Shown: positions 1,795-22,994 of the stretch, piece by piece | Numbering within the stretch: position 1 is the first letter of the stretch | Layout: the number at the start of each line of letters is the position of its first letter | Virus record (IMG/VR): IMGVR_UViG_3300017971_000781 | Coordinates: 1 to 22,994 of that record | Reading direction: 5' to 3' (one strand) | From: a virus | DNA length: 22,994 nt | Translations under genes and position numbers: made by a program | The notes under the pieces: generated by a model | The model's input: only the letters and a program-made list of their open reading frames with translations | Told to the model about the DNA's origin: nothing | The model's database searches: none

Positions 1795-3468
1795 ATGCGT
1801 CTCTTGGACGACCTGAAACGGACGATCACCGAGGGACTGAAGAGCAAGACGCTCACGTCTTGCAGCCGATGGGCCGAGCATCGACGGATCATGGGGGCAC
1901 CATTCAACGGCCCCTACGGCTTTGTGCGCCACCCGTGGTGTCGTGAGATTCACGACAGCAAGGCGGCCTGGACGATTGCGATGAAGGCCGCCCAGCTTGG
2001 CGTGACGGAGACGGGAATCAATCGTGCCTTTTTCACGCTCGATCAGTTGAAGCGTGACTGCCTCTACGTCCTGCCGACGACGCTGAACGCGAGCGACTTT
2101 TCCAAGGCCCGCTTCGCCACCGCCCTGAAACTCAGCCCCTACCTCAAGGACTTATTCGTTGACACGAACACCGTGGGGTTGAAATCCACGGGCACCAACG
2201 TCCTGTACATCCGGGGCAGCCGCGGCGACTCGAACCTGAAAAGCATTCCCGTCTCGGAGTTGGTGCTGGATGAACTGGACGAGATGGACACCCATGCGGT
2301 GTGGCTTGCGTTGGAAAGGCTGTCGGGCCAGGTGGAGAAGCACATCCTTGCCGTCTCGACGCCGACCGTCCCGAAGTACGGCATCCACAAACTGTACCTG
2401 ACAAGCACGCAGGAGCACTTCTACTTTCAGTGCCCACACTGCTCCCGGTGGACGGAACTGTTGTGGCCAGACTGCGTGGAGATTGTCGGCGAATCGGTCA
2501 ACGATCCTCGCTGCAAGGAGTCATTCCTCAAGTGCAGGGAGTGCAAGCATAAGCTGGACCACGAGGCGAAACCGGAGTTCCTGGGGTGCGGAGTGTGGCG
2601 GGCGACCGAGCCGAACGTACTGCCCGAGGAAGCGCGTGGCTTCTACATCAACCAGTTGTACTCGTCCACCGTGACGCCGGGCGAATTGTCAATTGCCTAC
2701 CATCGCGGGATGGGCGACGAGGCGGCGAACACCGAGTTCCATAACAGCAAGCTGGGGATGCCCTTCATTGGTGAAGGTGCCCAGGTCACGGACCAAATGA
2801 TCGAAGCCGCCGTCAAGGGGCACACAATCAACGAACCACGGCCGCAGATCGGCGGCGACCGCCTTGTGACAATGGGAGTTGACCAGGGAAAGACGGGCTA
2901 TATTGCCGTCGTGGAGTGGCTGTTCGATCAACACCCCGGTAGCGACATCAATGCTGCGGCCATCGGCAAGCTGCTTTGGTTCGGCAAGTTCCCCGAAGAT
3001 GGTTGGGACTATCTTGGAGAGCTAATGCGAGAATGGCAAGTTCTCGCGTGCGTGGTCGATGCGGACCCGAACATCAACGACGCCCGGCGTTTCGCCCGAA
3101 GGTTTCGAGGGTATGTCTGGCTGACGAGGTACAGACGTGGCGTGACTGCCAAGGAAATTGCCCTTAGCGAAGAGGAGACAGGTGCTCCGTTTGCAATTGT
3201 GGACCGAACAAGCTGGCTGAGTTGCACGCTCGGCCGCTTCAAGACGAACCCGCCACGCATCCTGTTGCCGCGCGACATTTCGTTGGAATTCCGCGAGCAC
3301 ATCAAGAATCTCGTTCGCACGTACACGAAAGACGACACGGGCAACATGTCCGCCGAGTACGTGAATACCGGTAGCGACCACTTCGCCCACGCCCTTTGCT
3401 ACAGCGACATTGGCTTAGCACTCGCGCCGATTGGGGGCAGCGGTGAAGACATTGGCAAGGTGACGTAA
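1795..3468 (+). CDS. terL: Phage terminase large subunit, GpA-like
   Basis: The protein has 557 residues and is the ATP-driven motor and nuclease that cuts and packages phage DNA through the portal. The N-terminal ATPase has a Walker A-like loop of the GpA type (KAAQLGVTE, residues 64-72) and a Walker B strand ending in acid (LVLDELDE, 156-163). A zinc-knuckle pair, CPHC (213-216) and CREC (247-250), is typical of the GpA family. The C-terminal nuclease half shows candidate metal ligands: Asp363 in MGVDQGK, Asp422 in VVDADPN, and a final SDHFAHAL block (527-534). The length is near the family norm of about 550-650. The start lacks a strong ribosome site, but the N-terminal alignment is natural. 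No small terminase is recognised beside it. Confidence 0.9.
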   Translation: MRLLDDLKRTITEGLKSKTLTSCSRWAEHRRIMGAPFNGPYGFVRHPWCREIHDSKAAWTIAMKAAQLGVTETGINRAFFTLDQLKRDCLYVLPTTLNASDFSKARFATALKLSPYLKDLFVDTNTVGLKSTGTNVLYIRGSRGDSNLKSIPVSELVLDELDEMDTHAVWLALERLSGQVEKHILAVSTPTVPKYGIHKLYLTSTQEHFYFQCPHCSRWTELLWPDCVEIVGESVNDPRCKESFLKCRECKHKLDHEAKPEFLGCGVWRATEPNVLPEEARGFYINQLYSSTVTPGELSIAYHRGMGDEAANTEFHNSKLGMPFIGEGAQVTDQMIEAAVKGHTINEPRPQIGGDRLVTMGVDQGKTGYIAVVEWLFDQHPGSDINAAAIGKLLWFGKFPEDGWDYLGELMREWQVLACVVDADPNINDARRFARRFRGYVWLTRYRRGVTAKEIALSEEETGAPFAIVDRTSWLSCTLGRFKTNPPRILLPRDISLEFREHIKNLVRTYTKDDTGNMSAEYVNTGSDHFAHALCYSDIGLALAPIGGSGEDIGKVT

Positions 3469-3481
3469 AAGGAAAGGCTCA

Positions 3482-4060
3482 ATGGCTTCAAAGCGCTGTA
3501 CGAAATGCGGCGCGGAGAAACCGCTATATGACTTCCCGATTGCGAAACACCACGCGGACGGGCGCGCGTCCCGCTGCAAGACGTGTAAAGCGGCATCCGG
3601 TGTTGCAGGAGCCGGCCATAGGAAACTGTCTGGCGAGTATCAGTACGTGGACGAGAAAAGGTGCCCTCGTTGTGGTGCTATGAAGTCGGCTGCAGATTTC
3701 TACTCAAATGCACAGCGGCGGGATCACCTGTCGATTTACTGCAAGCTCTGCACGCGGATCGTGTCGCCGAAGACGCCGCCAGAACAAATGCGAGATTGGC
3801 GCTACCGCAAGTTGTTCGGAATCACGATTGCTGACTACGACCGGATGCTGGCACAGCAGGGCGGACGTTGTGCGATTTGCGGGCGCTGTAACGCTGGTAA
3901 AACGCCCAAGGGTCGTTTCTGCGTGGACCACGATCATGCCACGGGACAGGTTCGGGCGCTGCTGTGCGAGAAGTGCAATCGTGGCTTAGGCCACTATGAC
4001 GATGATCCCGAGCGACTTGAGGCCGCTGCTCAGTACCTTCGTGCTTTCAAGAGAGACTAG
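3482..4060 (+). CDS. Endonuclease VII-type HNH nuclease with two extra zinc ribbons
   Basis: The protein has 192 residues. The C-terminal half is a clear recombination endonuclease VII (beta-beta-alpha metal) domain: GITIADYDRMLAQQGGRC, zinc cysteines Cys130, Cys133, Cys162 and Cys165, and the catalytic CVDHDHATG block (Asp149-His152) followed by CNRGLG. The family cuts branched or double-stranded DNA. The N-terminal half adds two Cys4 modules (Cys6/9/32/35 and Cys61/64/87/90), probably for DNA binding. It has a good ribosome site (aaaggaaagg) and ends 3 bases before the portal gene. HNH proteins in packaging clusters can assist terminase or be free-standing homing nucleases; the sequence does not decide which. 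Confidence 0.88.
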   Translation: MASKRCTKCGAEKPLYDFPIAKHHADGRASRCKTCKAASGVAGAGHRKLSGEYQYVDEKRCPRCGAMKSAADFYSNAQRRDHLSIYCKLCTRIVSPKTPPEQMRDWRYRKLFGITIADYDRMLAQQGGRCAICGRCNAGKTPKGRFCVDHDHATGQVRALLCEKCNRGLGHYDDDPERLEAAAQYLRAFKRD

Positions 4061-4063
4061 GCT

Positions 4064-5866
4064 ATGGCAGTGTTGAACGACAACGTAGCTCACATTGCTG
4101 ATGCCCGGCATCCGATGTATTTGACCGGGATGGTGGACTGGAGGAAGTGGAGGTTGACCTACGAGGCTGGCGATCCGTTTCGTGAGGCATACCTGGAGCG
4201 GTTCTCGACGCGCGAAGATCAGACGGACTTCAATACTCGCAAAGCGATAACGCCCGTGCCGGCGTTCGCCAAGGCCGCCATAGCCGATATTCGCAACGCC
4301 ATCTACCAGCGGATGCGGGACATCACCCGCAAGGGCGGCAGCAAGGCTTACCAGTACGCGGTCAACGGTCTGAACCTGGGCGTGGATCGGCGGGGTTCGA
4401 CGATGAACGCCTTCATTGGCGTCAAGGTCTTGACCGAACTGCTGGTCATGGGTCGGGTGGGCGTGTTCGTCGATTCGCCGCCCATCCCGCGAGCCGCTAC
4501 CGTGGCGGATGTCGGCAACGTCGCGCCTTACCTCTACAAGTACGACATCGAAGACACGCTAAGCTGGACCTGCGCGAAGCCCGAAGAGCCGAGCGAATTT
4601 CAGGCCGTTCTGCTGCGCGACACGGTGATGCAGTACGACCAGGCCACGTTGCTGCCGATGATCTCGGCCCAACGGTATCGCTACCTTTGGATCAGCCCGG
4701 AGACGGGGCGCGTCAATCTGCAGTTCTACGATCTCCAGGGCCAGCCGGTCGATCAGTTCGGCCAGCCCGGCGGGGCCATCGAGTTGGAGCTGGATCGCAT
4801 CCCCTTCGTGATGCTCGACATCGGCGGCAGCCTGATTAAGGATGTCTGCCAGCAGCAGATCGCGCTCTTGAACCTGGGATCGAGCGACGTGAACTACGCC
4901 CTGCGGTCCAACTTCCCGTTCTACGTGGAGCAGAAGGACTTGCGCGCGGTGGGCGCGCATCTGAAGCACGCCGCCACGGCGGACGGCACATCGACCACCG
5001 GCGGTCAAGGGGCCGCCGACACCGACATCAAGGTCGGCGCGACCCACGGCCGGGCCTACGACAAAGGCATGAGTCCGCCCGCGTTCATCAATCCCTCGGC
5101 CGAGCCATTGCGGGCGAGCCTGGAGTTGCAGGACCGGCTCAAGCGGGACATCCGCGAACTGGTCAACCTGGCTGTCTCGGCGCTGGCGGTGCGCGCGTCG
5201 GCCGAATCGAAGGCGATGGACAACCAGGGCCTCGAAGCCGGGCTGTCTTACATCGGCCTGCTGTTGGAGAGCGCCGAGCGCCAGATTGCCGAGTTTTGGG
5301 CCGCCTACGAGGAACGGACGCCGAGCAAGCGTGACGTGGCGACGGTCAAGTACCCGGATCGCTACAGCCTCAAGACGGACGCCGACCGGATCAAGGAGGC
5401 CCAGGACTTGACCAAGCTGATGAACGCCGTGCCCGGCCGCAAGGTCAAGCGCGAACTGGCGAAGGGCATTGTCCAGGCGCTATTGGGCGGGAAGATCAGT
5501 GTCGATGATCTGGAGGCCATCAGCCAGGAGATCGACGCCGCCCACTACACCACCAGCGACCCGCTGACGATCCTGCAAGCCGTGCAGAACGGCGTCTGCG
5601 GCGAGAAGACGGCCTCCGTCGCCCTGGGGTTCGACGACGACGAATACCTGGCGGCCCGTCAAGACCACCTGGAGCGCGTGAAGCGGATCGCGGAGGCCCA
5701 AGGGATCGCCAGTGACAAGGGAGGCGACCCTGCCGCCCGAGGCGTGCCCGACCTGTCAGCCGATCCCCATGCCGGCAAAGAGGAGAAGGCGGCAAGCCGC
5801 AATACCGATCTTCAGCCTACCACGGCTCCGCGGGTCCGTGGGGCGGGCAAGCCGAAGTTGGAGTAG
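4064..5866 (+). CDS. Portal protein, DUF4055-like
   Basis: The protein has 600 residues and should form the dodecameric ring at the capsid vertex through which DNA passes and on which the tail is built. It follows the terminase, has a portal-like size, and shows the layout of DUF4055 proteins: an N-terminal YxxxxxxWRKWRLTYEAGD-like region, a beta-rich wing region with WISPETGRVNLQFYDLQG, the conserved LLNLGSSDVNYALRSNFPF block, and a long helical region (RDIRELVNLAVSALAV). The last 60 residues or so are charged and probably disordered. It starts 4 bases after the nuclease stop and ends 4 bases before the next start. The portal role is strongly supported by order; the family is from recall of its conserved blocks. 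Confidence 0.8.
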   Translation: MAVLNDNVAHIADARHPMYLTGMVDWRKWRLTYEAGDPFREAYLERFSTREDQTDFNTRKAITPVPAFAKAAIADIRNAIYQRMRDITRKGGSKAYQYAVNGLNLGVDRRGSTMNAFIGVKVLTELLVMGRVGVFVDSPPIPRAATVADVGNVAPYLYKYDIEDTLSWTCAKPEEPSEFQAVLLRDTVMQYDQATLLPMISAQRYRYLWISPETGRVNLQFYDLQGQPVDQFGQPGGAIELELDRIPFVMLDIGGSLIKDVCQQQIALLNLGSSDVNYALRSNFPFYVEQKDLRAVGAHLKHAATADGTSTTGGQGAADTDIKVGATHGRAYDKGMSPPAFINPSAEPLRASLELQDRLKRDIRELVNLAVSALAVRASAESKAMDNQGLEAGLSYIGLLLESAERQIAEFWAAYEERTPSKRDVATVKYPDRYSLKTDADRIKEAQDLTKLMNAVPGRKVKRELAKGIVQALLGGKISVDDLEAISQEIDAAHYTTSDPLTILQAVQNGVCGEKTASVALGFDDDEYLAARQDHLERVKRIAEAQGIASDKGGDPAARGVPDLSADPHAGKEEKAASRNTDLQPTTAPRVRGAGKPKLE

Positions 5867-5869
5867 GCC

Positions 5870-6190
5870 GTGTCCGAAATCACCAAAGAAAACGCAACCG
5901 ATCTGTTCTACGGGCACTGCCTCGCCGGCCCCACGGCGAAGCGCCTCCGCGAACAGTCCACGCCGGTGTTGAAGGGCGTGTTGATTCGGGCTGCCGGCGT
6001 CGTGGACCCGACTCCCAATACCGCATGTGTCTGGGTGGGCGATGCTCGCGTCCTGCCCTCCAGCGATGTTGAGCGCGGCGGGATGCCGATTCCACCCGGC
6101 GAATCGCTGTTCATCCCGATTGACGATCCCTACCGGGTCTGGGTGATCTCGACCGGTGCGGACCAGGACGTGGCCTGGATGGCGATGTAG
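5870..6190 (+). CDS. Small beta-rich virion-type protein
   Basis: The protein has 106 residues with a GTG start at 5870, only 4 bases after the portal stop, and it ends 1 base before the fibre gene start. The body reads as alternating beta strands: VLIRAAGVVDPTPNTACVW, a DARVLPSS strand, a PIPPGESLFIPI turn and strand, and a VWVISTGADQDVAWM end. This pattern resembles small beta-sandwich phage proteins that decorate heads or anchor fibres, where strands such as VWVG and PGESLFIPI recur. I do not recognise a named family. Its place directly before two fibre genes suggests an adaptor or decoration role, which is inference. Confidence 0.65.
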   Translation: MSEITKENATDLFYGHCLAGPTAKRLREQSTPVLKGVLIRAAGVVDPTPNTACVWVGDARVLPSSDVERGGMPIPPGESLFIPIDDPYRVWVISTGADQDVAWMAM

Positions 6191-6191
6191 C

Positions 6192-7565
6192 ATGAGCGAC
6201 CTTTACCATTCGTCCGGCCACGGTCACGGCCCGGTCGGTCCATCCGGCCCACAAGGGCCGACGGGCGCGACGGGTCCGGGCGTCATCAATTGGCGGGGTG
6301 AGTGGAGCGCCGCACAGCACTACCTACTGAACGACGCCGTGGGCAAGTGCGGCTCGGCGTACATCTGCGTTGAAGAGCACACTGGCTCCGAGCCGCCGTC
6401 GTCGAAGTGGAACCTGTTGGCCGAGAAGGGCGGCGTCGGGGCAACTGGCCCGGTCGGGCCGAGCGGCCCTGCCGGAGCGATGGGGCCGGTCGGGGCGACC
6501 GGCTTGCAAGGCCCACGCGGAGCACAGGGCAATCAAGGGCCGCCCGGCGTGCGCGGACAGACCGGATTGCCTGGCGCGCAGGGCGCGACCGGCCCTACCG
6601 GCTCGCCTGGCTTCGTCTGGAAAGGCGACTGGAACGAGACGACGGTTTACACGCCGAAAGACGTGGTGCAGCACAACGGCTCGTCCTACGTCTGCGTGGC
6701 AACGTGCATCAACTCCGCACCGCCTTCGGTGAACTGGAATCTGGTCGCTGCGAAAGGCGATGTGGGTGCTGTTGGGCCGCAGGGCGTGGCCGGCCCCGCC
6801 GGACCCGAGGGCGTGCAAGGCCCGATCGGACCCCAAGGCGTGCAAGGCCCGGTCGGCGCGAGCGGTCCTTCTGGCCCGGGCGTGCTGAATTGGCGCGGCG
6901 AGTGGGACGCCGAGACTGTGTATGCAGTCAACGACGGTGTTTCGTATGCCGGCTCGTCCTACGTGTGCATCAGCGCACACTCTGGCTCAGCGCCGCCATG
7001 CGCCCGTTGGAACGTGCTCGCCGAGAAGGGCAGCACCGGGCCAACGGGACCGACTGGCGCGACCGGCCCATCCGGTGGCCCGACAGGTCCGACAGGCCCC
7101 CCTGGAAATGACGGCGCGACAGGCCCGACAGGCGCAACTGGGCCGACAGGCCCGCCTGGTCCTGGCGGCGACTCCAAAGTTACGTTGCAGAATCAGACGG
7201 GCGGCGTAGCCACCATTGGACAGGCCGTCTACCTGAGCGGTGCTGACCAGTTTGGTTTCGCCAAGGCGGATACGCAATCGACGACGTTTGCCATCGGCCT
7301 TGTGTCGGACGTGTCGATCCCTGCTGGTGATCCGGGCGTGGTGCAGACGAACGGCTCGCTGACGGCGACCACTGCTCAATGGGATGCCGTGACAGGGCAG
7401 AGTGGCGGGCTCACGACTGGGGCAACGTACTACCTGTCGGCTGCGACTGGCGGACGGTTGACGACTTCCATTCCAACTGCGGAAGGGCACTTCGTTGTGC
7501 AAGTGGGGACCGCTCTCAGTGCCACGAAGATGCTGATTCAGATTCAACGCCCCGTCCAACTGTAA
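6192..7565 (+). CDS. Collagen-like fibre with three carbohydrate-binding-like modules
   Basis: The protein has 457 residues from ATG 6192, one base after the previous stop. An upstream in-frame start (6156) overlaps the previous gene and is less likely. Gly-X-Y collagen-like tracts (about residues 9-29, 83-140, 193-230 and 284-325) alternate with three similar 47-residue modules at residues 34-80, 143-189 and 234-280. Each has the pattern W-(R/K)-G-(E/D)-W, GSxYxC, SxPPxxxWNLLA, resembling CBM5/12-type chitin-binding folds. Residues 327-457 are a beta-rich cap with [17 protein letters not shown], like C-terminal domains of other phage fibres. The protein is probably a trimeric fibre binding a host or environmental glycan; the ligand is unknown. 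Confidence 0.8.
6291..7031 (+). repeat. Three dispersed copies of a 47-residue CBM-like module
   Basis: The modules begin at the first Trp codons at 6291, 6618 and 6891 and each spans about 141 bases, separated by collagen-like tracts of different length. The second and third share GSSYVC, and the first reads GSAYIC. Each ends in WN(L/V) followed by Ala/Glu-Lys-Gly, which leads back into the collagen repeat. The module-plus-collagen unit seems to have been duplicated as a block. Confidence 0.7.
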
Positions 7566-7575
7566 GGGCACGTCT

Positions 7576-8700
7576 ATGGCACTGAGAAAACCACTTGTTC
7601 TCAATGGCGGCCTGATCCAACAGTTGTCCGGCCAGGATGCTCTGAATCTTTGCGACTTTCCTTCCTGGTCTGAGGACAGCAACAATTGGATTCAGACCAG
7701 GAAGGCGTTTTGCAGTTGGTGGGGGCGTGCCTACGCACAGTCGGTTCAAGCGGCAACGGAGTTTGGCAGCCTTTCCGGGTCGTCCAAGTGGTATGGCGGT
7801 GTCTTGGCTCCGAACGGGATGATCTACGGGATTCCGTTGGACAGTACAACGCTGTTGAAGATCGACCCGACCACGGACACCGCGACGACGTTTGGCAGCG
7901 TACCGGGAGGCAGCGCGTGGATCGGCGGCGTGTTGGCTCCCAGCGGGATGATCTACGGGATTCCGTACAGCGGTACGGCCGTGCTAAAGATCGACCCGAC
8001 CACGGATACGGCGACGACGTTTGGCAGCCTTTCCGGGTCGTCCATGTGGTGTGGCGGCGTCTTGGCTCCGAACGGAATGATCTACGGGATTCCGTACAGC
8101 AGTACGGCCGTGTTGAAGATCGACCCGACCACAGATACAGTGACGACGTTTGGCAGCCTTTCCGGGTCGTTCAAGTGGTGCGGCGGCGTCCTGGCTCCGA
8201 ACGGAATGATCTATGGGATTCCGCGCGACAGTACGGCCGTGCTGAAGATCGACCCGACCACGGATACGGCGACGACGTTTGGCAGCGTAGCGGGAGGCGG
8301 CGCATGGGCCGGTGGCGTCTTGGCTCCGAACGGAATGATCTATGGGATTCCGTTCAGCGGGACGACTGTGTTGAGGATCGACCCGACCACGGATACCGTG
8401 ACGACGTTTGGCAGCCTTTCCGGGTCGTCCAAGTGGTGTGGCGGCGTCTTGGCTCCGAATGGAATGATCTATGGAATTCCGCGCGACAGTGCGGCCGTGC
8501 TGAAGATCACCCCGGCCGCGGATGCGGCGACGACGTTTGGCAGCGTAGCGGGAGGCGGCGCATGGGCCGGTGGCGTCTTGGCTCCGAACGGAGTGATCTA
8601 TGGGATTCCGTTCAACAGTACGACCGTGTTGAGGATCGGAGGCATTTACGACGACGTACAACTCGACTTCTGTCTGTCACGCTTTTTCAATAAGTTCTAG
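7576..8700 (+). CDS. Seven-repeat, probably beta-propeller, fibre protein
   Basis: The protein has 374 residues. Residues 1-59 form a head with MALRKPLVLNGGLIQQLSGQ, a start seen at the N-terminus of other phage fibre proteins as I recall. Residues 60-360 are seven tandem 43-residue units with no gaps, with consensus TTFGS, GGVLAPNGMIYGIP, VL(K/R)IDPTTDT. Seven units of about 43 residues with W/G-rich beta strands fit a closed seven-bladed propeller with each blade ending in VLKIDP. The last 14 residues break the pattern. It starts 10 bases after the collagen-like fibre and is likely part of the same adhesive structure. Binding to a sugar or protein receptor is inference; no enzyme motif is seen. 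Confidence 0.8.
   Translation: MALRKPLVLNGGLIQQLSGQDALNLCDFPSWSEDSNNWIQTRKAFCSWWGRAYAQSVQAATEFGSLSGSSKWYGGVLAPNGMIYGIPLDSTTLLKIDPTTDTATTFGSVPGGSAWIGGVLAPSGMIYGIPYSGTAVLKIDPTTDTATTFGSLSGSSMWCGGVLAPNGMIYGIPYSSTAVLKIDPTTDTVTTFGSLSGSFKWCGGVLAPNGMIYGIPRDSTAVLKIDPTTDTATTFGSVAGGGAWAGGVLAPNGMIYGIPFSGTTVLRIDPTTDTVTTFGSLSGSSKWCGGVLAPNGMIYGIPRDSAAVLKITPAADAATTFGSVAGGGAWAGGVLAPNGVIYGIPFNSTTVLRIGGIYDDVQLDFCLSRFFNKF
7660..7705 (+). repeat. Perfect 14-bp inverted repeat inside the propeller gene
   Basis: The arms ccttcctggtctga (7660-7673) and tcagaccaggaagg (7692-7705) are exact reverse complements with an 18-base spacer. It lies within codons for residues 29-44, in the head just before the propeller repeats. 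No T run follows, so it is not a standard terminator. Confidence 0.6.
7753..8655 (+). repeat. Seven tandem 129-bp repeats (propeller blades)
   Basis: The word tttggcagc recurs at 7762, 7891, 8020, 8149, 8278, 8407 and 8536, an exact spacing of 129 bases. Units come in two kinds: SLSGSxKW (units 1, 3, 4 and 6) and SVxGGxAW (units 2, 5 and 7). Units 4-5 and 6-7 resemble each other pairwise, and units 5 and 7 are almost identical over their first 80 bases. The last unit decays in its final 7 residues. Confidence 0.95.
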
Positions 8701-8708
8701 GTGATGCT

Positions 8709-8927
8709 GTGCGGCTCTACACACTGACAACGGCGGAAGCAGCAGCCATCAACGCGCTCAATGCTCAACGCACCAACGTGCTGCTGATCGTCTGTGATCT
8801 CGGCGAGTACATGGGTGTTGATCCTGACGCGCTACGAAGCCCCGACTACGCTCCGTACCTGGAAGCCATTGGCGGCACGTACCAGGAAGGGCGGATCGTG
8901 GAACTTGGTGCCGGCCCACAGTTCTGA
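8709..8927 (+). CDS. Small protein of unknown function
   Basis: The protein has 72 residues with a GTG start at 8709, 8 bases after the propeller gene stop. The N-terminal half is probably one helix (TTAEAAAINALNAQ) followed by a strand (NVLLIVCDLG). The C-terminal half has DPDALRSPDYAPYLEAIG, a possible second helix, and a short beta end. There is no membrane segment or metal motif. I do not recognise it. Its place between fibre genes and the glycosyltransferase suggests a small accessory or assembly protein, which is only positional inference. Confidence 0.55.
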   Translation: MRLYTLTTAEAAAINALNAQRTNVLLIVCDLGEYMGVDPDALRSPDYAPYLEAIGGTYQEGRIVELGAGPQF

Positions 8928-8984
8928 AACGTAGACAGTCGGCGTTCGGTGGCCCTGGCTCTTCTCAACCTGCGGGATTCAGTG

Positions 8985-10136
8985 ATGCGTTTTCACGTTG
9001 TCGCCTTGCCGCATACGCGGACGGCCATGAGTCATTCGGCGTGTGCCTTCACGATGAAGATTCTGCACTTCTGCCAGATGATGTCGGGGCTGGGCCACGA
9101 GGTTTTTCACTACGGCGTCGAAGGGAGCGAAGTGCGGGACTGCACGGCGGAAGACATCCCCGTCATGTCCAAGGCCGAACAGGAAGGATTCTTCGGCAAG
9201 TACGATCCGAACGCCCTCTACGAAGTCGATTGGAGCGGACGAGCACCGTACTGGGGTCTGCTGAACAGTCGGGCGGCTGCCGAGATCAACAGGCGGAAGC
9301 AACTTGGCGACTTCGTGTGCGTCATCATGGGTACGTTGAACCTGCCTCTTGCCACTGCGGTCGGCAACGACGTGATGGTGGTCGAGTACGGCATTGGCTA
9401 TAACGGCACGTTCGCCAAGTACCGGGTGTTCGAGTCGTATGCCCACATGCACAAAATCTGGGGAGCCCAGGGCGGCTACGACCCGGACGGCCGGTTCTAC
9501 GACGTGGTAATCCCAAACTACCTGAACCCGGACGACTATCCGCTGCAAACAACCAAAGGGAACTACTACCTGTACTTGGGCCGGTTGATTAAGCGGAAGG
9601 GCATCCACATTGCGGTCGAGACGTGCAAGCAACTGGGAGCCAAGTTGAAGATCGCCGGGCAGGGGTGCAAGCACGTCGAAGGCAACCGTATCCTCTGCAC
9701 GGACGGCGAGGTGTACGAGGGCGACAACCTGGAATACGTCGGCTTTGCGACCGGCGCGAAGCGGGCGCAGTTGTACCAGGACGCCATCGCCACTTTCGTC
9801 CCGACGATGTACGTCGAACCGTTCGGGGCCGTGGCAATCGAATCCCAGATGGCAGGCACGCCCGCCATCACCACGGACTGGGGAGCCTTCCCGGAGACGG
9901 TGGAGCACGGCCGCACGGGATACCGCTGCCGCACGCTGGATCACTTCCTGTTTGCGGCAAAGAACGCACCGAATCTGGACCCCGAGTATATCCACCGGCG
10001 GGCCGTGGCGAACTGGTCAATGGACCGCGTGCGCCACCGCTACCAGGAATACTTCCAGATGTTGACCGACCTGTGGGGCAAGGGTTGGTACGCTGAACGT
10101 GAACGAACACAACTCGATTGGTTGACGCAGACGTAG
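8985..10136 (+). CDS. Glycosyltransferase, GT-B fold, family 4-like
   Basis: The protein has 383 residues. ATG 8985 is chosen over an in-frame GTG at 8949 because the protein then starts MRFHVVALPHT, a beta strand and loop that begins the N-terminal Rossmann domain. The C-terminal domain has YLGRLIKRKGIHIAVE (phosphate-contacting Arg/Lys loop), IAGQGCKHVEG, and the diagnostic EX7E motif EPFGAVAIE (Glu278 to Glu286) followed by AGTPAITTDWGAFPETV. These define retaining nucleotide-sugar transferases such as GT4. There is no signal peptide or membrane helix, so it should act in the cytoplasm. Within a structural operon it may glycosylate a virion protein, perhaps a neighbouring fibre, or host surface sugars; the target is not shown. 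Confidence 0.9.
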   Translation: MRFHVVALPHTRTAMSHSACAFTMKILHFCQMMSGLGHEVFHYGVEGSEVRDCTAEDIPVMSKAEQEGFFGKYDPNALYEVDWSGRAPYWGLLNSRAAAEINRRKQLGDFVCVIMGTLNLPLATAVGNDVMVVEYGIGYNGTFAKYRVFESYAHMHKIWGAQGGYDPDGRFYDVVIPNYLNPDDYPLQTTKGNYYLYLGRLIKRKGIHIAVETCKQLGAKLKIAGQGCKHVEGNRILCTDGEVYEGDNLEYVGFATGAKRAQLYQDAIATFVPTMYVEPFGAVAIESQMAGTPAITTDWGAFPETVEHGRTGYRCRTLDHFLFAAKNAPNLDPEYIHRRAVANWSMDRVRHRYQEYFQMLTDLWGKGWYAERERTQLDWLTQT

Positions 10137-10137
10137 T

Positions 10138-10659
10138 ATGGCAATCAACACGGACATCTACGGGACGCTCGGCGAGGCGGACACCTACTTCGAGAACCGT
10201 CTCCACGAGACGGCCTGGACTGGTGCCACGCCTGCCAGCCGTGGCAAGGCGCTGATTGCCGCGCGCGCCATCATCGACGCCCTGAACTACAAGGGCTCCA
10301 AGCACGCCGTTTACACGCTCTTGCAGGCGAACCCATCCGCCACCCAAGATCAGATCAGGGCTGCCGAGGTCAACCAGCCGTTGGAGTTTCCGCGTGGGGC
10401 CGATACGGAAGTGCCGGAGGCCATCCGCATCGCCGAGTACGAGATTGCCCACGCGCTGCTGGACGGCAAAGACCCCGAGTTGGAATTGGAGAATCTGGCC
10501 GTCAATTCGATGGGGTACGGGCAAGTGAAGACCAGCTATGAGCGGACGCAGTTGCCCATCGAACACATCATCAATCTGGTGCCGAGTTCTGTCGCGTGGC
10601 GCTTGCTCAAGCCCTTTCTGCGCGACTCGGACGCCTTGAAGTTGTCACGACTGAGCTAG
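10138..10659 (+). CDS. Head-tail connector, DnaT-like phage family
   Basis: The protein has 173 residues and starts 1 base after the glycosyltransferase stop. It shows the layout of the phage DnaT-like/head-completion adaptor family: YGTLGEADTYFENRL near residues 8-22, AWTGA, ALIAARAIIDALNYKG, then a LEFPRG block with VPEAIRIAEYEIAHALLDG. Such helical proteins bind beneath the portal and help form the neck. The C-terminal segment (residues 115-160) ends in LVPSSVAWRLLKPFL, a typical closing helix. Its family name mentions ssDNA binding, but in phage structural clusters a connector role is more likely. Confidence 0.8.
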   Translation: MAINTDIYGTLGEADTYFENRLHETAWTGATPASRGKALIAARAIIDALNYKGSKHAVYTLLQANPSATQDQIRAAEVNQPLEFPRGADTEVPEAIRIAEYEIAHALLDGKDPELELENLAVNSMGYGQVKTSYERTQLPIEHIINLVPSSVAWRLLKPFLRDSDALKLSRLS

Positions 10660-11709: not shown

Positions 11710-11789
11710 TCCTCTCAGGGGAACGGTGAAAGGGCAGGTGCGCCGGTCGCACCGAAGTCAAGTCGAAACCACATCTTGGAGTGAACAAC

Positions 11790-13208
11790 ATGAACCGTTT
11801 GTACCTCAGCAAGCCGGTCGTGGCCTGCTACGAGAACAACCTGGACGCCTTTATCCCGGAGTTGTGGGCGCAAGAGGGCCTGGCCATCCTCGAAGAGAAC
11901 ATGGTGATGGCCAACCTCGTCCACCGCGACTTCGAGAACGAGATCGCCAAGTTCGGCGACGTGGTGAACACCCGGAAGCCCGGGGAGTTCAAGATTCGCC
12001 GGAAGACGGACGGGACCACCCTGGCCCAGCAGGACGCCACGGCGACCAACGTGCAGGTGCCGCTGGACCAGTGGTTCTACTCGTCGTTCGTGATCCGGGA
12101 CGGCGAAGGGAGCAAGTCGTTCCAGGAGTTGAGCGACATCTACCTCCGGCCGGCGATGCTGACCATCGCTCGCGGCGTGGATCGCGCCCTGTTGGGCCGT
12201 GTCCATGCGTTCCTGGGTGCCCCGGTGGCCCGCGTGGGCAGGCTGGGCGGTTTGAACGCCAGCACGGCGAAGGACTACGTGCTGGAGGCCCGTGAGCGCC
12301 TGAACGTCAACAAGGCCCCCGTGGACGGCCGCCGGTTGGTCATGGCTCCGTCGAGCGAGACGGCCATGCTGAAGACCGACATCTTCTTGAAGGCCAATGA
12401 GCGGGGTGACGGCGGGACGGCGTTGGAGAATGCCACCCTCGGCCGCATCCTCGGCTTCGACACCTACATGTGCCAGAACGTCAACGGCCCGCTCTCCGGA
12501 GCGGACACCGACGCCACCCTGGTTATCACCGACGCCCTGGCGGTCGGCGGGAGCGGGTCGCAAGCGTGCTCCGGCATCACCGGCGCGGTGGTGACCGGCG
12601 AGTTCCTGACCGTGGCCGGCAACATGCAGCCGACGTACATCACGGCCCACACCGAGACGACTGGCGACACCACGGCCGTCACGCTGAACGAGGCCAACAA
12701 GTACGCCACCGAGGCCGCCGCCGCCACCGTCCGCTACAAGGCGTGCGATGCCGCTGCCGACTACGCGGCCGGCTACAGCAAGGGCATCGTCGTGGACGGC
12801 TACGCCACCGGCAAGGCCCCGCAGGTCGGCCAGTTGCTTGCCTTTGGGACGGGTGCCAACCGCCGAACCTACACGGTGATCGAGTCGGAAGACGCCGGCT
12901 CGACCTGCACCGTGTATCTGGACCGGCCGTTGGAGGTCGCGGTCGCCAACAACGACAAGGTGTTCCCCGGCCCCTACGGCGCGCTGAACCTGGCGTTCCA
13001 CCGGGACGCCCTGGCGCTGGTCACCCGGCCGCTGGCCCTGCCGGACACCCGGATGGGCGTCATGGCCGCCGTGGTCCCCCACAACGGGATCGGGATGCGC
13101 GTCTTGATGCAGTACGACATCAACGCGGGCGGGACCGTCGTGAACTGCGACATCCTGGCTGGCGTGGCCGTGCTGGACAGCGGCCTGTGTGTCCCTGTGC
13201 TCGGCTAA
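11790..13208 (+). CDS. Major capsid protein, P22 coat-like
   Basis: The protein has 472 residues. ATG 11790 has GGAG 8 bases upstream, whereas an in-frame GTG (11781) would overlap that site. The N-terminus (YLSKPVVACYENNLDAFIPE) and the blocks FENEIAKFGDVVNTRKPGEF, QWFYSSFVIRDGE and GVDRALLG look like the P22-type coat proteins of the HK97 fold. Residues 230-380 are a Gly/Ala/Thr-rich beta region that probably forms an inserted surface domain. The end (GVAVLDSGLCVPVLG) closes the A-domain. The gene directly follows the scaffold and is followed by a strong hairpin, as expected for a highly expressed gene. A small hairpin (11737-11753) lies in the 80-base leader. Confidence 0.87.
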   Translation: MNRLYLSKPVVACYENNLDAFIPELWAQEGLAILEENMVMANLVHRDFENEIAKFGDVVNTRKPGEFKIRRKTDGTTLAQQDATATNVQVPLDQWFYSSFVIRDGEGSKSFQELSDIYLRPAMLTIARGVDRALLGRVHAFLGAPVARVGRLGGLNASTAKDYVLEARERLNVNKAPVDGRRLVMAPSSETAMLKTDIFLKANERGDGGTALENATLGRILGFDTYMCQNVNGPLSGADTDATLVITDALAVGGSGSQACSGITGAVVTGEFLTVAGNMQPTYITAHTETTGDTTAVTLNEANKYATEAAAATVRYKACDAAADYAAGYSKGIVVDGYATGKAPQVGQLLAFGTGANRRTYTVIESEDAGSTCTVYLDRPLEVAVANNDKVFPGPYGALNLAFHRDALALVTRPLALPDTRMGVMAAVVPHNGIGMRVLMQYDINAGGTVVNCDILAGVAVLDSGLCVPVLG

Positions 13209-16725: not shown

Positions 16726-19700
16726 ATGGCCGACGAGATCGTCAACAAGCTGGGCTTTGACGTGGAAAGTGCCCTGGGCGCTTTGCAGCGCTTGGATACT
16801 GCGCTGCAATCTTCCGGCGCGGTCTTCCAGACCTTCGGCGCGACGCTGGACGCCTGGAACAGCCAAGCGAGAAACGCCCTGAACACGATGAAGGAGATGG
16901 CCTCGGCCGCCTCGCGGTTGGCCACGTCGATGGGGAAGATGGGCGCCGGCCCCGCAATGCCGGCGGCACCCGCTGCGGCCCCGTCGAAACTCTGGCTCCC
17001 GACCGATTTGGCCGGGGAGGCTCAAAAAGCCAATCAGGCGTTGCAGAATCTCGGCAACACGGCTGCCAACGCCGGGAATCAGATGCAGGAGGCTGGAGAG
17101 AAGGGCCGGAAGGCCGGCGCGGCTGCGGCCACGGGGGCGCAGGACGCTGCCAACAAGACCAAGGCGTTGACCGTTAGCTGGGAGACCCTGGGACGGGTCG
17201 TGATGACCCAGGCCATCGTCCGCGTCTTGAGCCAGATTCGTGACCTGCTGCGTGGGGCCGTGGCCGACGCCTTGGAGTTCTCCACGAAAATCTCGGAAAT
17301 CCAGACCATCGCCCCGAAGATCGACAAGGACTTCCGAGGGCTGGGCAAGGAAGTGGCCGACTTCTCCAGGCAGTTCAACTTCCCTTTGCCCGACGTGGCC
17401 GAGGCGGTCTATCAAACGCTGTCCAATCAGTTCACCACGGCCAGCCAGCGCGCGGACGTGATGACGGCCTCCGCCAAGCTGGCCAAGGTCGGCGTCATGG
17501 ACCTGAACGAAGCTGTGCTGCTCATAACCGGCACGCTCAACGGGTACGGGATGCAGTCCAGCCGGGCCGAGGACGTGGCCGCCAAGTTCTTCAAGACGAT
17601 TGAGTTGGGCCGCACCCGGGGTGCCGAGTTGACGCCCGTGATTGGCCGCATCGTGCCGATTGCCAGTGAATTGGGCGTCACCCTGGATGAAGTCAACTCC
17701 TCGATGGTCGCGTTGACCATCGGGTCGATGCGTGTCCCCGAGGCGGCGACCAGCTTCCGGGCAGGCTTGGCGGCCCTTATCAAGCCGTCCACTGACCTGC
17801 GGAAGGAGTTGCGTGCTCTGGGCTACGAGACGGGCCAGCAGATGATCCATGCCCTGGGCCTCCAGGGCACGTTTGAGGCCCTGCGCGAGAGCCAGAACGA
17901 CGACGTGGCAGCCACCGCTGCCTTGTTCCGCAACATCCGTGCCCTAAACGCCGAACTGCGATTAACAGGCGCCGGCGCGGAGCAGGCCGAAAGCGCCCTC
18001 AAGGCTATGAGCGCCACGTCGCGGGACGCCTTGAACGAGGCGTTCAAGCGGTTCACCTCCAGCGACGCGCAGCAGTACATGAAGGAACTGAACCGGTTCA
18101 AGGTGGCCTTGGCGACCGAGGTTGGGCCGGAATTGATAAAGTTTCTCTCCACCCTCTTGAAGACGGTGGGCGGGGCGGACGGGCTGACCGCCGCCATCAA
18201 GGGTCTGGCCACGACCTTCACGACCTTGGCCGAACCGCTGGCGGTGGCCGCCGGGGCGATGTTGGCCTTCTCGCTCCGCGCCAAGCTGGCGGCCATCAAT
18301 GCGACCCCGCTGGGCAGCATCTTCAACAATGCGATTGCCCCGCTGGCCATGACGGTTTGGGCCGCCGATTTCCTGGATCAGCGCCTCGCGTCGGTGCTGG
18401 GCAATGCCAACGAGAACTTCCGCAAGCACGTCCGGGAGATCGTCGAGGCCCAGGAGAAGGCAAGTACCGAGCGCATCGAGGCCGAGAAGAAGGTCTACGA
18501 CGACGCCGGCCGCCGGCTGGAGCAGTACACGGCACAAGTGCGCAGCGCGTACAACGCCCAGGTGGACGCGGCGCAGAAGAGCAATCAAGAGCTAATCACC
18601 TCGTCGCGGACGACGATGCAGGCGATGATCTCGGCCCGCCAGAGAATCGTGCAGCAGTTCCGCGCGGCCGCCCAAGACGCCAATCAGGCGGCCACCGATT
18701 CCGCGAAGCGTCAGGCGGACATGCAAGGCCATCTCGACGACTTGCTTTTCAAGGAGTGGCTCAAACGGCGACAGAAGTACGACGCCTACTACAAGAAACC
18801 CGAAGTCACGGAGGATATGTACAGTCGGCGCGCATTGGCCTTGACGAAGGAAGCGGCGGGGCTGCTGGCCAAGGCGGAGACCCCCGATCAAGTGCGGTCG
18901 GCCCAGGCCCTTTTCCAGCGAGCGGCGGCCCATGCCCAGGAGGCCCAGTCGATTGCCGAGGCATCGAAAAACGAACGGCTCTTGGCCGATGCCGAGCGAA
19001 CGGTGGAGGCGATCATCCGCCAACAGATCGCCGCTGAGAAGGAGTTCCAAGGCAGCAGCGCCAGCCGTGCGGAGGCGGCGGCCAAGGCGGCGGCCGAAGA
19101 GCAACGTCGCGTGGACCGGATGAAGGTCCTGATGAAGGGCATCCTTACCGACCTTGATCTGTTCGACAAGAAAGGCCCCATTGACCCGCGAAAGTCGGCC
19201 GCCATGTCGGCAGACTTGAAGAAGAAGATGGAGGAGTTCAAGGGGCTATGGATGGCGGGAACGGCGAGTCTCGATCTGGGCGAGATGCTGAAATACGACG
19301 CCCTGCAACAGCGGGTCAAGACGGTCTTGGAGGGCGGCGTTTCGGACTTGGAGGTCCAGAAGTTGTTTGCCGCGCCCACGACGATCGACGCGCTGCGCGC
19401 CCAGATCGAAAAGGGCTTGGGGGCGGTCAACGTCGCCCTCACGCCGTTTGCCAAGCCGGGCACGAGTCTCACGCCCCAGGGGCTTGCCAGGATGGACCCG
19501 GCCGCGCGGCTGGCGGAGATGGAGCGACTGAGCGCGGAGTACACGAAGCAGGTTGAGTTGGTGACGAAGCTCCAAGCCGAGCACGACGCGATTGGAAGGT
19601 CCATGACGCTTCAGAAGGCGGCCCAAGGTGCCTTGGGTGGCAACGTGACCGTCTACCGGGCGGCCCTGGAGGATTGGCGGACCTTCTTGTCCCAGGCCAC

Positions 19701-20538
19701 TCGCAAGGGCATCGGGACGATCTTCGGCGGCGGGAACATCCGGGAGGACACGAAGGCCCTGGCCGACCTGATGCAGCAGTTTCAGCAGGTGTCCAAGACC
19801 GGCATCAAGGGCTTCGGGATGGACCAGTTCCTTGAGTTGCAGAAGAAGGCCACGGACCTGCTCACCAAGCCCACCCTGACTGCGCTGGACAGGGAGTTCA
19901 TCCAAAGCCAGATGGGTTGGCTGAAGTCACTGGCGGACCAGGCCGAGGCCCTGAAGGCAAGCCAGCAGACGCCGCAGGGCCAGCCCCGCAACGTGGAGGC
20001 GGAGTTGCAGAAGGCACGGCAGGAGGCCGAACGTCTCAAGGGGATCATCGACCGGCTGAGTCCCCAGACGACGACTCAGATGGGTGAGGGCGCACAGCAG
20101 GCGCAAACCGCCCTCAGCGCGATTCCAAGCATGGCAAATCTGGCCGGCGACATCCAGGCGGCGGCCACCGCCATGTGGGACTTGGCGGCAGCCTCGTGGA
20201 GTGTGCAGGCGCCGCCGGCTGCCGTCACCGCTGCCAAGGGCCGGACGGTGTGGAACTTCCTGGCTTTCGGCGGCCCGGCCCAGGGCACGGACGTGATTCC
20301 GGCAATGCTCTCGCCGGGCGAGGTGGTCATCAACGCCGCCTCGGCACGGAAGTTTGCCTCGCAACTGACCGCCATCAATGCCGGCGTCCAGCCGGTCTAC
20401 CGCAGCGAAGGCGGCAGCGTCACCAACATCGGTGACATCAACGTGACTGTAACCGGCGGCGGAACCAGCCGCCAGACGGCTAGGTCCATCGCCGCCGAAT
20501 TGCGACGTGAACTGCGGCGTGGCACGGCAACCCTGTAA
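16726..20538 (+). CDS. Tail tape measure protein
   Basis: The protein has 1270 residues, the largest in the window. Tape measure proteins fill the tail tube and set its length; by the usual rough rule of 0.15 nm per residue it predicts a tail near 190 nm. The start MADEIVNKLGFDVESALGAL is typical. Hydrophobic stretches (about residues 150-180 and 500-550, including LAEPLAVAAGAMLAFSL) follow, then long charged coiled-coil regions (560-1150). The C-terminal block at about 1177-1212 reads FGGPAQGTDVIPAMLSPGE, a conserved end that marks phage tape measure proteins, then a basic tail. It starts 11 bases after the previous stop. No peptidase domain is seen. Confidence 0.93.
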   Translation: MADEIVNKLGFDVESALGALQRLDTALQSSGAVFQTFGATLDAWNSQARNALNTMKEMASAASRLATSMGKMGAGPAMPAAPAAAPSKLWLPTDLAGEAQKANQALQNLGNTAANAGNQMQEAGEKGRKAGAAAATGAQDAANKTKALTVSWETLGRVVMTQAIVRVLSQIRDLLRGAVADALEFSTKISEIQTIAPKIDKDFRGLGKEVADFSRQFNFPLPDVAEAVYQTLSNQFTTASQRADVMTASAKLAKVGVMDLNEAVLLITGTLNGYGMQSSRAEDVAAKFFKTIELGRTRGAELTPVIGRIVPIASELGVTLDEVNSSMVALTIGSMRVPEAATSFRAGLAALIKPSTDLRKELRALGYETGQQMIHALGLQGTFEALRESQNDDVAATAALFRNIRALNAELRLTGAGAEQAESALKAMSATSRDALNEAFKRFTSSDAQQYMKELNRFKVALATEVGPELIKFLSTLLKTVGGADGLTAAIKGLATTFTTLAEPLAVAAGAMLAFSLRAKLAAINATPLGSIFNNAIAPLAMTVWAADFLDQRLASVLGNANENFRKHVREIVEAQEKASTERIEAEKKVYDDAGRRLEQYTAQVRSAYNAQVDAAQKSNQELITSSRTTMQAMISARQRIVQQFRAAAQDANQAATDSAKRQADMQGHLDDLLFKEWLKRRQKYDAYYKKPEVTEDMYSRRALALTKEAAGLLAKAETPDQVRSAQALFQRAAAHAQEAQSIAEASKNERLLADAERTVEAIIRQQIAAEKEFQGSSASRAEAAAKAAAEEQRRVDRMKVLMKGILTDLDLFDKKGPIDPRKSAAMSADLKKKMEEFKGLWMAGTASLDLGEMLKYDALQQRVKTVLEGGVSDLEVQKLFAAPTTIDALRAQIEKGLGAVNVALTPFAKPGTSLTPQGLARMDPAARLAEMERLSAEYTKQVELVTKLQAEHDAIGRSMTLQKAAQGALGGNVTVYRAALEDWRTFLSQATRKGIGTIFGGGNIREDTKALADLMQQFQQVSKTGIKGFGMDQFLELQKKATDLLTKPTLTALDREFIQSQMGWLKSLADQAEALKASQQTPQGQPRNVEAELQKARQEAERLKGIIDRLSPQTTTQMGEGAQQAQTALSAIPSMANLAGDIQAAATAMWDLAAASWSVQAPPAAVTAAKGRTVWNFLAFGGPAQGTDVIPAMLSPGEVVINAASARKFASQLTAINAGVQPVYRSEGGSVTNIGDINVTVTGGGTSRQTARSIAAELRRELRRGTATL

Positions 20539-21246: not shown

Positions 21247-22221
21247 ATGGCTTACGAACGATTTGCCAACGGCGGACTCTCTTCGCTGGACGCGACAATC
21301 GACAACGACGATCTTGCGCTGACGGTGAAGTCGGCTGTCGGGTTCCCTACCGGCGGCAACTTCCGCATCATCATCGACGACGAGATCATGCTGGTTACGG
21401 ACGTGCAGGGCAAGACCTTCACGGTCTCGCGGGCGCAAGAGGGAACCAGCGCCGCCAGCCACGACGCGGACGCCGCCGTGTTTCACGTCCTCACGGCGGG
21501 TGCTTTGGCCCAGCGGGACATCGAGCAGTTCGCCACCGGAGCCGTCGCCGATCGCGATGCGGCCGGGCAGGCGGGCCGTCTCTACCTGCCGACCGAGGGC
21601 TTTGCCGCCCGCGACAGCGGCCTGGATTGGGAGATGATGCCTTATCATCGGTTCGTTCCGCCAGTCATTGGCGACTTTTCCTGGGTCAACCAGGGCAGCG
21701 CTACGGTGACCGATCGCAAGGGGATGATGGTCCTGGAGACGCCGAGCGTGGCGTCGGGCGAGAATCTGCGGCTGTTGGTCAAATCCGCGCCGACGACCCC
21801 CTACGAGATCACCGTCGCCATGATGGCCTTCGGGCCGATCTACACTACGTCGAACGCCGTTCCACAATTCGGCTTCTGCTGCCGCGAGAGCAGTTCGGGC
21901 AAGCTGCTCACTTACGGCTTCGGCTTCAATAACTACCCCTTTCGGTTCCAGTACGCCCAGTGGAACAGTCCCACGTCGCTCTCCAGCGGTGTCGTGGACG
22001 TGCCGGCAATGTCGCACTGGCCTCTCTGGTTGCGTTTCGCCGACGACGGCACCTACCGGCGGGTCTATGTCTCAGGGGATGGGGTCAAGTTCAACCTCGC
22101 GGTGGGCGAAGAGTCCCGGACGACGTTTCTGACGGCCGATGAAGTCGGCCTGTTTGCCAACAGTTGGAAGAACACTTACGTGCCGCGCGTCATTTCGTTT
22201 CTGCATTGGAGGGAAGCATAA
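21247..22221 (+). CDS. Tail fibre-type protein, first of a tandem pair
   Basis: The protein has 324 residues, with atgagga just before ATG 21247. Residues 10-75 form a small beta domain (FRIIIDDEIMLVTDVQGKTF, VSRAQEGTSAASH, HVLTAGAL) common in phage fibre anchors as I recall. A GRLYLPTEGF linker then leads to a domain of about 200 residues with FSWVNQGSATVTDRKG, CCRESSSGKLLTYGFG, LWLRFADDGTYRRVYVSGDG and VGLFANSWKN, which reads like a lectin-type (concanavalin-like) jelly roll. It is similar to the next gene throughout. The likely job is receptor or glycan binding, by inference. Confidence 0.7.
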   Translation: MAYERFANGGLSSLDATIDNDDLALTVKSAVGFPTGGNFRIIIDDEIMLVTDVQGKTFTVSRAQEGTSAASHDADAAVFHVLTAGALAQRDIEQFATGAVADRDAAGQAGRLYLPTEGFAARDSGLDWEMMPYHRFVPPVIGDFSWVNQGSATVTDRKGMMVLETPSVASGENLRLLVKSAPTTPYEITVAMMAFGPIYTTSNAVPQFGFCCRESSSGKLLTYGFGFNNYPFRFQYAQWNSPTSLSSGVVDVPAMSHWPLWLRFADDGTYRRVYVSGDGVKFNLAVGEESRTTFLTADEVGLFANSWKNTYVPRVISFLHWREA

Positions 22222-22994
22222 TGGCCGAGCAGTTCAAGAACCTCGCCAGCACGACGCTTGACGGCGCGATTGACGATGAAGTCACCACCATCACCGTCGC
22301 CAGTGCAATGGGCTTTACGGGCGGTGATTTCCGCATCCTCGTGGACAGCGAGATTATGAAGGTCACGGCCGTGAGCGGCCTGGACCTGACGGTCGCGCGA
22401 GGCGCGGAGGGGACAAATCCCACTGCGCATGACAATGCCGCCGTGGTTCGCCACGTCCTGACGGCCGGGGCGCTCGATGCCCACGATCAGGACGATCTCG
22501 TGGTCCGGGACACCTACGATAACAAGCCGGCGGCAGGCGTCCCCGGCCGCCTCTTCCTGCCGACCGATGGCATCTTCTTCGAGCGCGACAACGGCTCGTC
22601 GTGGGAGAAGTTCGGCCCGCTGTGGCCCATGACGCCCCCGCAAGCCTCGGATTTCCCGACCTGGGTGAACCAAGGCTCGGCGACCATCGTGGACAACAAG
22701 GGGGCGATCTGGATGGAAACGCCGTGCATCAGCAGCGTCAACGTCCGGGCGCGAGTGAAGTCCTATCCCACTCCACCCTTCACCGTGGAGATGGCGTTGG
22801 TTCCTTGCGTCACGCCCAATTCGGGAAATCCCGTTGCAGGGCTTTGCATCCGCGACAGCGTATCGGGCAAGCTGCAAATCTACGGCTTCTACGACCAGGA
22901 GGGCAAGGTCATGGGCCGCAATTACAGCAGCCCTACGACCTACAACAGCGGCGTGACTGGCTGGCCGGGGAGCGGCTACTTGCACATGGCCGAG
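22221..22994 (+). CDS. Paralogous tail fibre-type protein (partial, runs off the window)
   Basis: An open frame starts at ATG 22221, overlapping the previous stop by one base (TAATG) with ggaggga just upstream, a sign of coupled translation. It stays open for 258 codons to the window edge, so the C-terminus is missing. It repeats the layout of the gene before it: FRILVDSEIMKVTAVSG, ARGAEGTNPTAHD, HVLTAGAL, GRLFLPTDG, TWVNQGSATIVDNKG and CIRDSVSGKLQIYGFY. The two therefore arose by tandem duplication. The copies now differ strongly, with only short blocks shared, so the duplication is old or has been reshaped by selection. Confidence 0.75.
   Translation, partial: MAEQFKNLASTTLDGAIDDEVTTITVASAMGFTGGDFRILVDSEIMKVTAVSGLDLTVARGAEGTNPTAHDNAAVVRHVLTAGALDAHDQDDLVVRDTYDNKPAAGVPGRLFLPTDGIFFERDNGSSWEKFGPLWPMTPPQASDFPTWVNQGSATIVDNKGAIWMETPCISSVNVRARVKSYPTPPFTVEMALVPCVTPNSGNPVAGLCIRDSVSGKLQIYGFYDQEGKVMGRNYSSPTTYNSGVTGWPGSGYLHMAE

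Follow-up and report, generated by a model that had tools for sequence, protein, structure and literature searches.

The window, by which the whole stretch of DNA analysed here is meant, is a complete viral record from IMG/VR, 22,994 bases long. Its gene content, as assigned by ORF calls and by Pfam and PHROG profile searches, is that of a tailed-phage segment. No near relative among isolated phages was found by a nucleotide search with the adaptor-to-major-capsid-protein region, which returned only short GC-rich matches, and the best match of the terminase was to Thermus phages, at 27%. Searches for the propeller described below gave one weak Streptomyces match among plasmids and four loci in a genome-contig scan, which are too few for a host assignment. 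The genes of the window are as follows.

1795-3468: terminase
3482-4060: endonuclease VII-like protein
4064-5866, plus strand: portal protein (phrog_145, 1.5e-28)
5870-6190, plus strand: syntenic 106-aa protein in the gap between portal and fibre genes (homologues adjoin the portal; without family match)
6192-7565, plus strand: collagen-like fibre protein with CBM5/12-like carbohydrate-binding modules (Pfam Collagen 2.9e-19, CBM_5_12 5e-15; PHROG tail fiber 1e-75)
7576-8700, plus strand: propeller gene, 374 aa, predicted DUF6923-type seven-blade beta-propeller (ORF calls, Pfam, AlphaFold2)
8709-8927, plus strand: syntenic 72-aa protein downstream of the propeller (homologues in L004, L006 and L015; no Pfam or PHROG family match)
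8949-10136, plus strand: glycosyltransferase of the same portal-to-adaptor cassette (Pfam Glycos_transf_1 2.9e-18; phrog_3408 2e-76)
10138-10659, plus strand: head-tail adaptor Ad1, a separate gene in the window (phrog_477, 1.2e-13)
after Ad1 and before the major capsid protein: scaffold gene
11781-13208: P22-type major capsid protein
between major capsid protein and tape measure: head closure protein Hc1
16726-20538: tape measure protein

The propeller gene lies within the portal-to-Ad1 interval, and its immediate upstream neighbour is the collagen-like fibre gene, whose Pfam match confirms what the first-pass annotation had read from the sequence. The gene thus has a virion-protein context, with the collagen/CBM fibre upstream and portal and Ad1 flanking. 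The CBM5/12-like modules are interspersed within the collagen-like fibre. The glycosyltransferase gene, which recurs beside propeller genes in three related loci (L005, L006, L007), might serve to glycosylate fibres of the virion or sugars of the host. On the 3′ side of the tape measure, two adjacent paralogous tail-fibre-like proteins with a common N-terminal pattern (21247-22221 and 22164-22994) are probably tail-tip fibres.

Within the propeller gene the following parts were distinguished, units 1 to 6 being delimited by Tandem Repeats Finder, word positions and unit alignment.

7576-7752, plus strand: N-terminal region, residues 1-59, with the motif KPLVL..G..QQL...D as in standalone relatives (alignment; low model confidence)
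7753-7764, plus strand: N-terminal outer strand, residues 60-63, predicted to complete blade 7 (1+3 velcro closure; DSSP on the model, closure from the strand count)
7762-7890, plus strand: repeat unit 1 (129 bp, 43 residues)
7891-8019, plus strand: repeat unit 2
8020-8148, plus strand: repeat unit 3
8149-8277, plus strand: repeat unit 4
8278-8406, plus strand: repeat unit 5
8407-8535, plus strand: repeat unit 6
8536-8638, plus strand: repeat unit 7, partial, with three strands, the fourth coming from the N-terminus (Tandem Repeats Finder, alignment, model)
8638-8697, plus strand: C-terminal tail ending SRFFNKF (distant relatives keep an (S)R..N(K/N). ending; a cyanophage relative has SLNKF)

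The word TTTGGCAGC occurs exactly at positions 7762, 7891, 8020, 8149, 8278, 8407 and 8536, all seven copies being in frame inside the single ORF, so that the word at seven exact 129-base steps reported in the first-pass annotation stands. No further exact copy is present in the window, and with one mismatch allowed 13 copies were counted against 5.9 expected (at most 11 in shuffled sequences). Tandem Repeats Finder reported an array at 7761-8638 with a period of 129, 6.8 copies and a score of 1001. The units had also been described as seven exact 129-bp repeats, which holds for their spacing but not for their sequence. In pairwise DNA comparisons, units 1 to 6 are 71-91% identical to one another and 61-81% identical to unit 7, which is truncated, its final part being unrelated to the other units. 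A higher-order likeness groups units 1, 3, 4 and 6 on the one hand and units 2, 5 and 7 on the other, which means that more than one duplication lies behind the array.

The protein matches Pfam DUF6923 with 73.9 bits (curated cut-off: 27). A single-sequence AlphaFold2 prediction (pTM 0.63) was replaced by a run with an alignment of 51 homologues, from which one row belonging to an annotated phage record was left out. This run gave a mean pLDDT of 89 and a pTM of 0.88, with a pLDDT of about 95 in the propeller part and below 50 across most of residues 1-23. The N-terminal residues 1-59 may represent the part that attaches the protein to the virion. In the model, DSSP assigned a strand at residues 60-63, four strands to each of blades 1 to 6 and three final strands at 330-335, 341-345 and 351-354, that is 28 in total (1 + 6 × 4 + 3). 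As modelled, the protein is a closed seven-blade ring, the last blade of which is completed by the N-terminal strand. Foldseek returned seven-blade virginiamycin B lyases as the closest solved folds (E 1.5e-15), and VIA-align superposed 293-297 residues on them at 2.6-2.8 Å (Z 30-31, identity 10-12%). The confident ring and the fold match bear out the closed propeller which had been predicted from the repeats, and a solenoid or disordered repeat is ruled out by the model. Matches to SepRS_C, DUF359 and type III pantothenate kinase were weak, repeat-driven and below the curated cut-offs. No tail-nozzle family was matched by the protein in Pfam or PHROGs.

The fold match raises the question whether the propeller could be a virginiamycin B lyase-type enzyme or some other propeller hydrolase or lyase with host surface polymers as its substrate. 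Like the lyase Vgb (2z2o, 2qc5), the phage protein is predicted to form a closed seven-blade propeller. Unlike Vgb, it has no catalytic centre and its blades are highly similar, nearly equivalent to each other and without a unique active-site insertion. There is no histidine among its 374 residues and therefore no counterpart of the lyase catalytic residue (H270 in 2z2p), which excludes virginiamycin B lyase chemistry. A phmmer search against PDB sequences found no relative, and no lyase up to an E-value of 10. With neither a histidine nor detectable sequence homology, an identity as virginiamycin B lyase is ruled out, and an enzymatic role in the wider sense appears very improbable.

Scans of IMG/VR viral contigs yielded 176 and 246 stretches with relatives, of which the best 77-79 loci of each scan were kept. 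The first-pass annotation had called such propellers rare in phage structural operons. Given these numbers, and the propeller receptor-binding proteins of phi11, PRD1 and phiKZ (PMC4901313), this was too strong. Blades were counted with a blade HMM on complete viral ORFs. Seven blades were found in 75 of 77 distinct ORFs in a first count and in 85 of 93 in a wider set, although both counts favour full-length copies and are biased to the usual family length, since the loci were ranked by match strength. Most exceptions in the wider set reflect a degenerate seventh blade, which was recognized by eye in L014 and L192, and three Vibrio proteins show six blades and a gap about as long as two blades. 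A single 700-aa protein (L231:2989-5088) contains 14 blade units (2 × 7) and probably forms two seven-blade rings. Five near-identical 44-residue units terminate a 602-aa fibre protein (L227:1933-3738), which may be either a true five-unit form or a product of assembly collapse. The three frame-shifted units on a Woesebacteria-labelled contig (L020:4932-5487) are a degraded or mis-assembled copy. The integral seven is thus kept among the homologues, and varying, non-integral counts were not encountered. Judged by these counts, the blade number of this phage propeller family is locked at seven (or 2 × 7), with one five-unit exception.

This constancy is accompanied by signs of a repeated turnover of the blades themselves. 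At fourfold-degenerate third positions the blades of the window protein differ by 0.224, compared to 0.645 expected from the codon usage of the same contig, and across the family this within-protein difference ranges from 0.012 (Cylindrospermopsis phage Cr-LKS4) to full saturation. Between L037 and L044, 0.75 of the silent sites differ, whereas within these two proteins the values are only 0.05 and 0.12. Where two proteins are less than about 80% identical in their blades, a blade of the one hardly resembles the blade of the same position in the other more than it does those of different positions. The nearest DNA neighbour of a blade lies within the same protein for six of the seven window blades and for 247 of 546 blades overall, and in L003 a block of three blades was copied (pairs 1-4, 2-5 and 3-6). 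These silent-site and neighbour patterns indicate that the rings were rebuilt repeatedly, with the count still being seven; read in this way, the blades are homogenised or re-amplified again and again within the gene.

Variability between the blades of one protein is highest at blade positions 12, 9, 27 and 28, which, going by the strand boundaries in the model, fall within the DA and BC loops or directly beside them. The AB loop (APNG), Tyr23 and Pro26 are nearly fixed, and positions 38-39 of the CD loop are somewhat variable too. In four-strand blades the DA and BC loops share one face. By this topology, the most variable positions of the blades would lie on one face of the disc. This variability could reflect drift. 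It would also fit, together with the adjoining CBM5/12 fibre, a glycan-binding role, and the propeller is a probable adhesin, a reading in good agreement with its genomic context.

Where on the virion such a ring might be displayed can be approached through its relatives. Standalone relatives have about 375 residues and often start with KPLVL..G..QQL...D and end with SR.FNKF. In larger, fibre-like proteins of 580-1311 residues (L037, L055, L058, L075, L081 and Cr-LKS4 g13, which ends in ...SLNKF) the propeller is C-terminal and is preceded by 270-1000 residues. In fibre proteins the head usually occupies the C-terminus. The propeller gene of L058 has genes for tail fibres or virion structural proteins as neighbours. 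Vibrio phages have a diverged propeller gene directly behind the tape measure, and the gene after it encodes a pectin-lyase-fold or hemagglutinin protein. Two or three propeller genes stand in tandem in L005, L011, L067 and L085. The three of L011 (4312-7852) lie between the major capsid protein and Hc1, another interval among neck genes. As the gene behaves as a mobile module, being found among tail-tip genes in Vibrio phages and in the capsid-to-Hc1 cassette of L011, its position is weak evidence for the location of its product. The window gene could encode the head of a tail-tip or capsid fibre that is merely located between portal and Ad1. An ordinary receptor-binding head at the distal tip of a tail fibre would match the collagen-like tail-fibre gene upstream, the Vibrio arrangement and the C-terminal propellers of the long fibre-like proteins. 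However, the window has its own tail-tip genes elsewhere, 3′ of the tape measure, and the same lineage fuses the propeller to Ad1, a protein whose place is at the portal. A purely distal location is therefore considered rather unlikely.

This fusion was found at 13 loci of a sister clade, mostly from separate metagenomes (L036, L038, L039, L040, L042, L045, L046, L048, L051, L054, L060, L061, L064). A single open frame encodes seven blades, a proline-rich linker (e.g., GPASPPQPVDPPKPKG) and Ad1, so that the propeller is N-terminal and the Ad1 homologue is located at its C-terminus. The ATG of the fused frame overlaps the portal stop and is preceded by an AAGGAG-like site. The Ad1 part of the L036 fusion is 60% identical to the separate Ad1 of the window, and the portals of the two groups are 67% identical. 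A second Ad1 was not found in five fusion records scanned over their whole length (one of 81.8 kb), which may be incomplete records. The adaptor of RcGTA is a dodecamer, the C-terminal hook of which holds the portal while its attachment domain contacts the capsid (PMC7296036). With this geometry, an N-terminal propeller would be borne around the neck. A search of the open-access literature returned no fusion between a propeller and a head-tail connector.

The contents of the portal-Ad1 interval vary among relatives. It contains nothing in L133, a protein of about 200-300 aa resembling tail-type domains in L104 (similar proteins occur in L125 and L132), and cassettes of collagen, propeller and glycosyltransferase genes in the window and in L003-L005, L007 and L012. 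In L107 (7227-8498), L120 and L123 the N-terminus of Ad1 carries a different fused repeat domain, of the T(Q)VQCEVLGE type, so that Ad1 appears to act as a platform for display in general. The signs of a neck location are thus the Ad1 fusion in the sister clade and, for the window phage, synteny alone. As close relatives fuse the ring to the head-tail joining protein, the propeller is probably worn around the neck and not at the tail tip alone. The blades of the fused sister clade are old and diverged and show positional orthology, and their propeller could for this reason differ in role from the renewed, unfused ones.

A position at the neck would also suit a mechanical decoration of capsid or neck which seals or stabilises the portal vertex and is no adhesin. 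Besides the Ad1 fusion and the portal-side synteny, this idea can draw on the crassvirus muzzle and the T7-type nozzle, where propellers form structural gates (PMC10172136). The propeller nevertheless appears dispensable for assembly, as the interval of close relatives holds unrelated modules or almost nothing, and the CBM fibre and the renewal of the blades fit host contact better. Such a mechanical role is regarded as improbable.

The reading preferred here, held with somewhat more confidence than doubt, is that the closed seven-blade propeller is an adhesion module displayed on the virion, which most likely binds glycans and in the window phage would be sited at the neck. There it would be made as a separate protein and take its place in the portal-adaptor region together with the collagen/CBM fibre. 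One face of the disc, with loops varying from blade to blade, would bind repeated surface sugars multivalently and might thereby help in host capture before or beside receptor binding by the tail tip. Recurrent blade duplication or gene conversion would renew this binding face, and selection for ring closure would remove products without seven blades. A more specific version, which seems to us about evenly balanced, envisages a neck adhesion device in which the Ad1 ring carries seven-blade propellers, twelve of them if it is dodecameric as in RcGTA (PMC7296036). The portal-adaptor interval would then be a slot into which different display modules can be inserted in exchange for one another, such as the propeller, the collagen/CBM fibre and tail-type or other repeat domains, with the blades being re-amplified under a strict limit of seven.

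Phage receptor-binding proteins with propellers are known from phi11 (Gp45, five blades), PRD1 (P2, a distorted five-blade form) and phiKZ (gp131C, seven blades) (PMC4901313). They share a propeller domain with the window protein and are placed on the virion in host-recognition or peripheral positions. The window propeller differs in lacking a sequence match to solved chains and in its highly repetitive blades, and its seven blades also set it apart from Gp45 and P2. A neck fusion of propellers of this kind is not described in the papers found. Near-identical blades from recent duplication are shared with the repetitive WRAP-like propellers (PMC6805158, PMC9218822). For these, however, a broad survey showed a continuum of blade numbers (PMC9218822), while the phage family keeps seven or 2 × 7. 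A further parallel is the neck passage structure of the lactococcal phages TP901-1, Tuc2009 and phiLC3, which is located where capsid and tail join and is equipped with carbohydrate-binding modules (PMC9692632). The likeness would consist in an ancillary adhesion device with CBMs. The lactococcal structure is, however, a separate coiled-coil and CBM protein without propeller and unfused to the adaptor. The WD40/YVTN-like protein of Vibrio phages 2.095.A and 2E1 (MG592664, KX507045) likewise has a related propeller, at its N-terminus, and is encoded among virion genes, but differs in its diverged blades, its long other C-terminal domain and its location after the tape measure. A collagen-repeat protein of Hokovirus, a giant virus of protists, is predicted to contain a propeller that superposes at 1.3 Å and is 40% identical to that of the window (A0A1V0SG21, BFVD), collagen and propeller apparently forming one chain there. 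The pairing of collagen and propeller is thus common to very different viruses.

Phage propeller receptor-binding proteins were known before (PMC4901313). What appears to be new, as far as the open-access literature shows, is the fusion with the adaptor and a renewal of blades that keeps strictly to seven. Neither this fusion nor the homogenisation of the blades had been noted in the first-pass annotation. If true, a propeller built onto the adaptor would place host-binding heads at the neck of tailed phages, as a second adhesion site that can be tested. The family moreover constitutes a natural experiment on what sets the blade number of a propeller, with blades that seem to be recopied at the DNA level, from near-identical ones (Cr-LKS4) to silent-site saturation, while the count is seven or twice seven.
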